From NCBI GenBank assembly GCA_018813765.1, contig JAHJBC010000001.1, forward strand, positions 310,001 to 374,000: a stretch of 64,000 nt of DNA, given 5' to 3'. The stretch's first letter is position 1, and the number at the start of each line of letters is the position of its first letter. The notes below the pieces were generated by a model. That model saw nothing but the letters and a program-made list of their open reading frames with translations, made no database searches and had not been told where the DNA came from. Positions 42,973-45,141 of the stretch are shown here, piece after piece. This stretch comes from Gammaproteobacteria bacterium (lineage in GTDB: Bacteria > Pseudomonadota > Gammaproteobacteria > Burkholderiales > Gallionellaceae). The translations under genes were made by a program, and so were the position numbers.

Positions 42973-43006
42973 GGGTTACTCCGCGACTATTGTTGTCATT
43001 CAGGAA

Positions 43007-43079
43007 ATGCAGGAGCGCAGCTTCACCGCGCGACAATACAATCGGGGACTTATCGCGCAGCAAAGCTGCGCTCCTGCAT
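43007..43079. repeat. Second REP-type inverted pair (REPIN-like)
   Basis: A 17-bp perfect inverted repeat (43007-43023 with 43063-43079, ATGCAGGAGCGCAGCTT) encloses 39 bases. The right arm read on the minus strand continues as GCGCAGC-TTT-GCTGCGC followed by GATAAG, i.e. the REP hairpin plus tail; the left copy is less perfect. The GCAGGAGC head parallels GTAGGAGC of the pair at 2161-2220. It lies between the orphan parA start and the glmS tail relics. Confidence 0.78.
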
Positions 43080-43113
43080 GCCCTGTTCCATCATAAACCC
43101 ATCGCAAAACCAG

Positions 43114-43158
43114 TCACTCTTCAGTAACGGACTTTGCATGATCGGGAGGTTGTGGTTT
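43114..43158 (-). pseudogene. Relic glmS 3' tail, distal copy
   Basis: On the minus strand this reads KPQPPDHAKSVTEE and stop TGA, matching the GlmS ending [12 protein letters not shown] at the core residues AKSVT-E. The bases after the stop (CTGGTTTTGCGATGGGTTT) also resemble those after the true glmS stop (CCGGATTTGCGCGGGGTTT), so the copied unit spans the stop codon. It has no upstream coding part. Confidence 0.75.
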
Positions 43159-43199
43159 CGGCCGCCTTTTCGGGCTTAACTTGCCATCCAACTTCGGCT

Positions 43200-43238
43200 T
43201 TATTCCACCGTAACGGATTTGGCGAGATTCCTTGGCTT
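43200..43238 (-). pseudogene. Relic glmS 3' tail, proximal copy
   Basis: On the minus strand this reads [12 protein letters not shown] followed by TAA: all twelve last residues of GlmS are kept, but nine of the twelve codons differ from the functional gene (43318-43356), all silently. The preceding bases are not GlmS-like. Such silent divergence means the tail came from a separately evolving glmS, most simply carried in on an integrated element. It covers the segment that TnsD-type proteins recognise in attTn7. Confidence 0.85.
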
Positions 43239-43317
43239 GTAGCTTCGGCCGGGGCGTTGCCCCTTAACGCTCGCTACGCTCGCATTAGCCTTCGCCGCAA
43301 ACCCCGCGCAAATCCGG

Positions 43318-45141
43318 TCACTCGACCGTAACCGACTTTGCAAGATTGCGGGGTTTGTCCACATCCGTTCCCTTTTGCAACGCTACGTAATATGCCAACA
43401 GTTGCAGCGGGACGGTGTGCAGAATAGGGCTCAGAAAACCTGCGTGTTCGGGCATTTGCAGGATGTGGATGCCATCCGATTCGCGGATGTGGGTATTCGC
43501 GTCCGCGAAAACGAATAGTTCGCCGCCCCTTGCGCGTACTTCCTGCAAGTTGGATTTCAGCTTTTCCAGCAGGGCGTCGTTGGGGGCGACCGAGACCACC
43601 GGCATGTCCTTGTCCACCAGCGCCAGCGGGCCGTGCTTTAGCTCGCCCGCCGGATAGGCCTCGGCATGGATGTAGGAGATCTCCTTGAGTTTGAGCGCGC
43701 CTTCGAGGGCGATGGGGTAATGCATGCCGCGTCCCAGGAACAGTGCATGGTGCTTGTCGGCGAAGTGTTTCGATAGTTCGGCGATTTTGGGTTCCAGCGC
43801 CAGCACCTTTTGCACTGCGGCGGGCAAATGGCGCAGTTCGTGCAGGTACTGTTGCTCGCGGTTCGCATCGAGGCGACCGCGCAGTTTGGCCAGCACCAGC
43901 GTGAGCAGGAACAGGGCGGCAAGCTGAGTGGTGAAGGCCTTGGTCGAGGCAACGCCGATCTCGGGGCCGGCGCGGGTCAGCAGGCGCAGTTTCGACTGGC
44001 GGATGATGGCGCTTTCCGGCACGTTGCAAATGGCCAGCGTGTAGGGATGGCCGGTCGTCTTGGCATGATTGAGTGCTGCCAGCGTGTCCGCCGTCTCGCC
44101 GGATTGCGAGATAGTGACCACCAGCGCCTTCGGATTTACAACGCTGGTGCGATAGCGGTATTCGCTTGCTACTTCAACGCTGCACGAAATTCCGGCGATC
44201 TCTTCCAGCCAGTAACGGGCCACCTGCCCGGCGTGGTTGCTGGTGCCGCAGGCGAGGATGAGGATGTGCTCGATCTGCGGAAAGATGGTCGCTGCTTCGG
44301 CGCCGAAGATGCCTGGCACCAGCGACTGGCTGTTGCACACCGATTCCAGCGTATTGGCCAGCGCCTGCGGCTGCTCGTGGATCTCTTTCTGCATGTAGTG
44401 CTGGTACTCGCCCAGTTCCACGCTGTCGTTGTCCAGTTCGCTCACATGCATCTGGCGCTGTACGGCATTGCCCTGCGCATCGAATATGCGGTAATTGTTG
44501 AGGTTGACTTCGACCAGGTCGCCCTCTTCCAGATAGACCACGTTTTTCGTGACTTGCAGCAGTGCCGACATGTCGGATGCGACGAAATGCTCGCCTTCCC
44601 CCACGCCCAGCAGCAACGGGCTGCCCTTGCGCGCGGCGATGAACTGGTGCGGATTGTCCGCCGCCACCACGGCGATGGCATAGGCGCCGACCAGTTGCTG
44701 CAACGCCATCTGCGTGGCCACCAGCAGGCTGCCCTGCGCATAATGGCTGTGGATCAGGTGGGCGATGACTTCGGTGTCGGTGTCCGAGGTGAATTCGTAA
44801 CCGTGCGCAGTCAGTTCGGCGCGCAGTTCCTCGTAGTTCTCGATGATGCCGTTATGCACCACCGAGATCAGGTCGCGGCTGATGTGCGGGTGGGCGTTGC
44901 GTTCGCTCGGCACGCCGTGCGTGGCCCAGCGCGTGTGGGCAATGCCCAGTTCGCCGTGCGTATTAGCACTCTTCTGCGCCAGTTCGGAGACGCGCCCGGT
45001 GCTGCGCACGCGGTCCAGTTTACCGTCGTGCACCACCACCAGCCCGGCGGAATCGTAGCCGCGGTACTCCAGCCGCAGCAAACCGTTCACCAGGATGGGA
45101 ACGATGTTTCGTTTTGCAACTGCACCGACTATTCCGCACAT
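43318..45141 (-). CDS. glmS: Glutamine-fructose-6-phosphate aminotransferase (isomerizing)
   Basis: A 607-residue enzyme making glucosamine-6-phosphate for peptidoglycan and LPS. The N terminus [17 protein letters not shown] gives the catalytic Cys after Met removal (glutaminase domain, to about residue 240); two SIS isomerase domains follow ([55 protein letters not shown]). It ends [13 protein letters not shown], the coding part of attTn7. glmU ends one base upstream, so glmU-glmS are co-transcribed. Two relic copies of its 3' tail lie downstream. Confidence 0.97.

Follow-up and report, generated by a model that had tools for sequence, protein, structure and literature searches.

A small folded non-coding cassette as the probable source of repeated gene tails behind glmS and other genes of Betaproteobacteria

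Three glmS tails and the parts between them

The window analysed here, a stretch of 64,000 nucleotides from a Gallionellaceae genome (G000), carries a glmS gene whose last codons are repeated twice behind it, which raises the question of which of the three tails is native and of what brought the others. In the preliminary description the repeats had been taken for foreign gene ends, marking the far edges of lost Tn7-like or integrase islands. Direct reading of the window sequence confirms that three glmS tails stand in tandem. Tail copy 1, said there to match the gene in residues and stop, does differ from the real tail at 9 of 12 codons, all of them silently, but its stop is TAA and not TGA; tail copy 2 reads as described, and its likeness to the gene extends past the stop, the 57 nt around it being 79% identical to the real tail region. 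The parts of the locus are the following.

43318 to 45141, minus strand: glmS, the host gene, 607 amino acids (from the list of open reading frames)
43318 to 43359, minus strand: functional glmS tail, read as having come in with the cassette, by inference from argF (sequence; tail switches in glmS pairs)
43298 to 43317, minus strand: antisense arm, complementary to part of the glmS tail (predicted fold of 43200-43360)
43234 to 43303, minus strand: element X, three-way-junction core plus closing helix (model R1, 69.7 bits, E 4.7e-13)
43200 to 43241, minus strand: tail copy 1, read as the displaced former glmS tail (sequence, tail-core and relic-only patterns)
43149 to 43214, minus strand: decayed second X, its right half clear by eye (R1 weak: 16.7 bits, E 0.17)
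43114 to 43158, minus strand: tail copy 2, read as an older displaced tail, KPQPPDHAKSVTEE-TGA (sequence, tail-core pattern)

The tail-core pattern has exactly three sites in the whole genome, all at this glmS locus, and the relic-only tail pattern has a single match in the window, with no match in 100 shuffles of that sequence. By eye, the spacers of 80 and 42 nt between the window tails hold neither a gene nor Tn7-type ends. Element X stands between the real glmS tail and tail copy 1, the decayed X between tail copies 1 and 2, and the arm directly 3' of the glmS stop pairs with the glmS tail in the predicted RNA fold. The locus is thus likely, in our judgement, to hold one intact and one decayed copy of a cassette. 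Separate from X, a 36-nt inverted repeat (83% complementary) lies at 43001-43085, between the last relic and a parA-like gene, and for this hairpin (43005-43081) Rfam returned sub-threshold miRNA-precursor matches only.

The reading preferred here is that a small, dispersed, non-coding mobile cassette swaps gene tails, entering at a gene end and leaving the native tail displaced behind X, and we consider this the probable origin of the repeats. As regards glmS itself, the tail core was matched at least twice in 15 of 158 Gallionellaceae genomes; four of the 15 (G057, G096, G114, G147) have two glmS genes, each on its own contig, which leaves 11 genomes. The window genome is one of the 11, and another is G034, where the glmS tails are 31 kb apart. 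Tails without the preceding glmS Asp codon were sought in 84,980 genomes, which gave 94 stretches, from which the frequency of tail decay is not readable, since the scan pattern requires an intact tail peptide. Model R1, built solely from glmS units, matches 46 of the 94 glmS loci at E<=0.01. Tail-to-tail units shorter than 300 nt, 73 of which were laid out, come mostly from Betaproteobacteria, with some from unresolved Proteobacteria or from entries named 'Gammaproteobacteria bacterium'; among them, those of Anaeromyxobacter (L129) and Melainabacteria (L137, L148) are without the architecture of tail, arm and X.

Element X, its arm and the genes it adjoins

In the core of X, of about 68 nt, the closing helix is separated by a 3x3 internal loop (GNA/GNA) from another, short helix, which leads to a three-way junction bearing two hairpins; the foot of the X hairpin is gene-specific, and the GNA triplet in the internal loop is variable. 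Covariation was assessed over 22 pairs in 23 units selected from relatives as being of the three-way-junction type, X being taken by reference. Within these chosen units, 96.8% of the cells are paired and both sides change in 14 of the 22 pairs, the covariation score being 0.363 as against 0.163 in shuffles, a value reached by 0 of 500 shuffles, and pairing falls to 23-47% when the partners are slid along the alignment; the measure of further pair types lies within the shuffle range (63/500). The closing helix, built from the end of the arm and the start of the next tail, is paired in 97.1% of the cells of the same units. A shorter form with one hairpin, which R1 misses or scores weakly, is present in many Polaromonas-type units. 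No Rfam match at the gathering score was obtained for the window and six loci.

Such strong covariation also suits a different explanation, in which X serves the 3' untranslated region as a functional RNA or terminator, is immobile in itself, spreads with the gene end by homologous recombination between orthologues and forms tandems by slippage. It would fit, moreover, with the many X that stand directly behind gene ends on the strand of the gene, that strand alone having been counted. The arm argues against it, being tailored to each gene. The arm matches the gene tail ahead of it as a reverse complement, and the predicted fold of the two is a long hairpin whose loop contains the stop codon. 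The 16-nt arm fits its own upstream tail at 11.5 of 16 positions and tails at other loci at 9.0 of 16 (P 1e-11), and when matched positions are compared the gene tail fits the arm better than the copy behind X does in 29 of 49 cases, equally well in 16 and worse in 4 (P 1.5e-5). Since the arm suits the tail that accompanies it better than the copy behind X, tail, arm and X can be regarded as one unit, to which the copy behind X is foreign.

The same core is found behind unrelated genes, at gene starts and beside tRNA genes, which is likewise hard to reconcile with an immobile RNA of the untranslated region. R1 has 8 matches in the window genome, at glmS, argF, smpB, ftsW, a class I aminotransferase gene (two in tandem), nrdA and beside tRNA-Leu, and further neighbours of X elsewhere are metK, proB, typA, accB, pstB and tRNA-Ser. 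At E<=0.01, X is present in 40 of 60 family genomes, with a maximum of 14 in one genome; across Pseudomonadota, with stricter filters, it is present in 5 of 299 at E<=1e-5, the window genome among them. Gene starts adjoin X at L270, L259, L231 and L275, where the start sequence is repeated across X; these genes are presumably nuoD, an MFS-type transporter gene and galU. X also lies beside tRNA-Leu or tRNA-Ser genes at L224, L258, L268, L274 and L286, the 5' half of the tRNA being duplicated in at least L224 and L274, with the joint at L224 near the anticodon loop.

The repeated ends were then counted over 82 copies, which are 82 of the 88 matches listed for G000, G001, G018, G123, G124, G135, G326, G343, G347 and G377, those omitted being the glmS matches of G000, G123, G124 and G135 and two contig-end matches of G135. 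A direct repeat across X scores at least 30 in 59 of the 82 (median 48), as against 5 of 82 in the controls, for each of which the best of five shuffles was taken (median 22, maximum 32). A set of 96 copies was formed by adding 14 from six loci picked as examples, the copies of both sets having been chosen by R1 and not by their tails. A gene end lies within 70 nt upstream of X in 57 of the 96 copies, a 'gene end' being counted wherever a stop-to-stop frame of 90 codons or more terminates, so that some of these ends are possibly spurious. Behind X, a copy of the tail of that gene is present in 40 of the 57; among the remaining 17, and among the 39 of the 96 with no gene end within 70 nt, some are the second units of tandems or lie at tRNAs or gene starts.

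Between gene and copy, 200 differences are silent and 82 non-silent, the silent share expected at random being 23%, and by codon position the differences number 56, 24 and 190. In L224, L270 and L274, which count among the 40, the frame runs over a tRNA or a gene start; when these three are set aside, the figures become 37 of 54 copies and 200 silent against 72 non-silent differences. As most differences are silent, gene tail and copy must, for most of their divergence, have served as the ends of working genes; the earlier claim to this effect for glmS is therefore borne out, with the same silent pattern at other genes. These counts bear in turn on another account of the repeats, in which the gene end was duplicated locally and then decayed, since silent divergence at many genes disfavours it. 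Neighbouring glmS tails are indeed identical in L116, L121, L132, L140 and L180, as that account would have it, but 200 silent against 82 replacement changes across many genes point the other way. Furthermore, the pattern named beforehand as favouring duplication, identical relics with no element in the relatives, is not what the relatives show, close ones holding different cassettes at this place. Duplication of the gene end is in consequence very unlikely, in our estimate, as the general origin of the tails.

Duplication of whole units is a separate matter. Near-identical tandem arrays occur in G377 (five units) and G347 (four units), and these arrays are what slippage of an immobile RNA would also produce. 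The five X matches of the G377 locus (L276, G377:C1:1736500-1739500) follow a single gene at intervals of about 145 nt, in tandem units that are almost the same, which shows that units are able to multiply into a small array; together with the identical neighbours in L121, this indicates that duplication of the unit also occurs.

Native and foreign tails, and the Tn7-like transposon

The origin of each tail was best resolved at argF, which was compared in 30 congeners. The site is empty in G151, G128, G134, G139 and G152, where tail and stop are followed by ATCGG and then by the next gene, which from its appearance we take to be argG; in the window genome the order is functional tail, arm, X and relic. 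When the closest empty-site congeners are ranked by the argF body (G151, G136, G135, G128), the window relic differs from them at 1, 4, 2 and 1 of 45 positions and the functional tail at 8, 9, 11 and 8. The flanks give a similar picture in two further genomes, the sequence behind the relic having 6 of 45 mismatches to the empty G135 in G124 and 7 of 45 to G133 in G129, versus 29 and 31, respectively, behind the functional tail. As for the tails themselves, only G000 is clear-cut, the relic in G124, G129, G141 and G150 not being clearly nearer to the empty congeners than the functional tail is. In G129 the functional end of argF reads VQ and the displaced one VA.

Most likely, then, the foreign tail is the functional one and the so-called relic is the displaced native tail, as is shown at argF of the window genome and, by extension, proposed for glmS. 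This reverses the polarity of the preliminary description, in which the relic had been the foreign end. It also weighs against local duplication, the window argF relic being nearer to the relatives than the functional tail is, and the occurrence of empty beside occupied sites within one genus weighs against an immobile functional RNA.

At glmS, pairs of genomes with near-identical gene bodies were compared, and in three of them the switch falls within the first codons of the tail. The pair L058/L062 has 0 mismatches in the last 54 nt before the tail and then 11 of 36, all silent (P 1.2e-5), and the tail jump is also abrupt in L074/L081 (P 1.8e-6) and in L119/L152, of Burkholderiales (P 2.2e-4). 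A jump with P<0.05 was found in 13 of 17 pairs, hand-picked from 32 with at least 93% identity and not independent, since pairs share genomes. It is absent from L055/L061, a control without X, and from L057/L078, which share the same cassette; it is present in L065/L079, despite no R1 match in either genome, and also in L062/L080 and L062/L075, whose cassettes were classed as similar. Mean divergence at third positions rises from 0.25 to 0.57 with different cassettes (61 pairs), from 0.25 to 0.54 with X in one genome only (49 pairs), from 0.15 to 0.35 with similar cassettes (6 pairs, the jump being strong in two) and from 0.26 to 0.37 with no X in either genome (22 pairs). The jump is larger for different cassettes than for genomes without X (61 and 22 pairs, P 1.7e-4, the pairs again not being independent).

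A functional RNA spreading with its gene end by homologous recombination would not be expected to behave in this way, since in the 13 of 17 pairs the change starts at the tail and not in the gene body; on the whole we hold that explanation to be improbable, though it is the most serious of the rivals. Empty argF sites and abrupt glmS tail switches together indicate that the mobile unit consists of foreign tail, arm and X, and that the relics are displaced native tails. Exact insertion, a restored gene end, a displaced old end and empty relatives, by which a site-specific integrative element is recognized, are found at argF of the window genome together with the glmS pairs. The earlier proposal that each tail copy is the far edge of something that entered at the gene 3' end, in layers, is supported by this; what entered was most likely a different thing.

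The intruder had been thought to be a Tn7-like or integrase island at attTn7, since lost from between the tails. Such an island does exist in one relative, G034, whose two glmS tails enclose a 31-kb Tn7-like transposon, but the relic there predates it. The transposon starts 24 nt past the glmS stop and has GCGGC on both sides; its Pfam matches (PF08722, PF13401, TniQ, TnsD) correspond to the TnsA, TniQ and TnsD families and an AAA protein, and a TnsB-like frame, with no Pfam match, is named from its position. Beyond its far end come the rest of an ordinary unit and then the relic. Lying within the first unit and having its own 5-bp target duplication, the transposon split a unit that was already present, as was the relic. 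By Pfam, it also carries an error-prone polymerase gene and an IS110-family transposase gene (L037/L038, G034:C5:27000-62500), together with what we take, by eye, to be a restriction-modification gene pair.

Apart from G034, element-like ends adjoining X in L158, L142 and L123, as judged by eye, speak for lost islands. X and tail copies are found, on the other hand, at genes other than attTn7, the intact-tail pattern had no match in IMG/VR viral contigs, and a non-coding unit of about 90-165 nt is still present where an island was supposed to have been lost. With viral contigs devoid of intact tail copies and the G034 transposon younger than the relic, the lost-island reading was dropped, and we now consider it highly improbable.

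A proposed mechanism and its relation to known systems

The unit, mostly of 90-165 nt, consists of a gene tail including the stop codon, an arm reverse-complementary to this tail, and X. According to the mechanism proposed, it would enter at a fixed point inside the end of the host gene, often GA|(C/A)AA..., so that the gene would run into the tail copy of the cassette and stay functional, and the original tail, no longer translated, would end up behind X and decay. A second entry would add a further layer and thus produce tandem relics, and layers could also arise by duplication of units. As the joint is the very place where arm and target pair, the movement is probably a homing into the matching gene of another genome, presumably by way of a folded single strand. 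The least certain step is the function of the arm, which might act as a guide selecting the target by pairing, in a manner like that of IS608. The movement itself would be carried out by a host enzyme or by one acting in trans. Plain homologous recombination between orthologues could move units as well.

We lean, by a modest degree, towards regarding these cassettes as an undescribed class of minimal homing elements of Betaproteobacteria: folded, non-coding, of about 100 nt, with a gene-specific replacement end and a complementary arm, gaining access through this match to the same gene of other genomes, and altering the coding ends of many housekeeping genes while leaving them functional. No description of such elements was found in a literature search that took in few of the subscription journals. 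A blastn search with the window glmS unit gave no match in plasmids and phages, a single sequence being a weak test for a family conserved in structure.

The unit, being non-coding, encodes no recombinase, and in 60 family genomes none of three enzyme families tracks X, a result that an immobile functional RNA would also predict. For Y1 transposases (PF01797) the correlation with the number of X gave rho -0.15 (P 0.24), G018 having 14 X and no PF01797; for reverse transcriptases (PF00078), with none found in the window genome, it gave rho -0.11 (P 0.42) over the same 60. Integron integrases (TIGR02249) likewise showed no association (P 0.74), X being present in 21 of 33 family genomes with and 19 of 27 without them. 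The TIGR02249 cut-off was passed in 33 of the 60 family genomes and in 0 of 14 control genomes. Action on X in trans by a Y1 enzyme encoded elsewhere is still compatible with these figures.

Several known systems share part of these features. Integrative elements at the 3' ends of tRNA genes and glmS enter the gene end, restore the gene and displace the old end to the far side; the X unit is similar in its entry at a gene end, in the new end supplied and in the old end displaced, but differs in that it carries no gene, measures mostly 90-165 nt and has one core serving many unrelated genes, the tail and arm of every copy being adapted to the gene at which it stands. The attC sites of integrons are folded recombination sites, conserved in structure above sequence, whose units form tandem arrays. 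X resembles integron cassettes in its folded, structure-conserved site and its tandem arrays, whereas it is without clear attC boxes (by eye), has its arrays at gene tails and shows no link to integron integrases.

PATE-like elements are derivatives of IS200/IS605. In IS608, as given in the accessible part of the source, the sequence at the 5' foot of a hairpin base-pairs with the joint at the 3' foot (PMC5934647). A hairpin whose 5'-foot sequence pairs at the 3' joint is the likeness between X and the IS200/IS605 and PATE-like elements, the pairing in X being that of the closing helix; unlike IS200/IS605, the X unit has no transposase, an arm of at least 10 nt instead of a tetranucleotide, a three-way-junction core and a host gene tail that it carries along. 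REP/BIME sequences with TnpA-REP are described, in the part of the source available, as small dispersed palindromic extragenic elements (PMC8266576). X is, like them, small, dispersed, palindromic, extragenic and near gene ends, but it lacks the conserved GTAG foot, is accompanied by gene-tail duplication and shows no link to Y1 counts.

If the reading is correct, the ends of this mobile element are copies of sequence in its target gene, and for this reason it can sit in essential genes, leaving a layered record of gene-end replacement. It would probably account for unusual differences that set the C termini of closely related genomes apart, such as the one at the G129 argF. Its target being apparently set by the complementary arm, it may represent a naturally programmable insertion system. 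At attTn7 the stacked units would form a landing zone, one used by the Tn7-like element in G034.

Repeated glmS ends are not confined to these units. Some glmS loci in other phyla have 0.7-2.2 kb with unrelated genes between the tails. At L104, L125, L130, L139, L155, L175 and L186, duplicated tails flank 0.7-1.5 kb, with no R1 match at any of the seven; the genes in these inserts, judged by eye, presumably resemble small toxin-antitoxin genes or an ATPase gene. In Chitinophaga pinensis (L173), with no R1 match, a decayed glmS-like end lies 2.2 kb behind glmS. The duplicated tails in other phyla possibly represent another kind of insertion at the glmS end.
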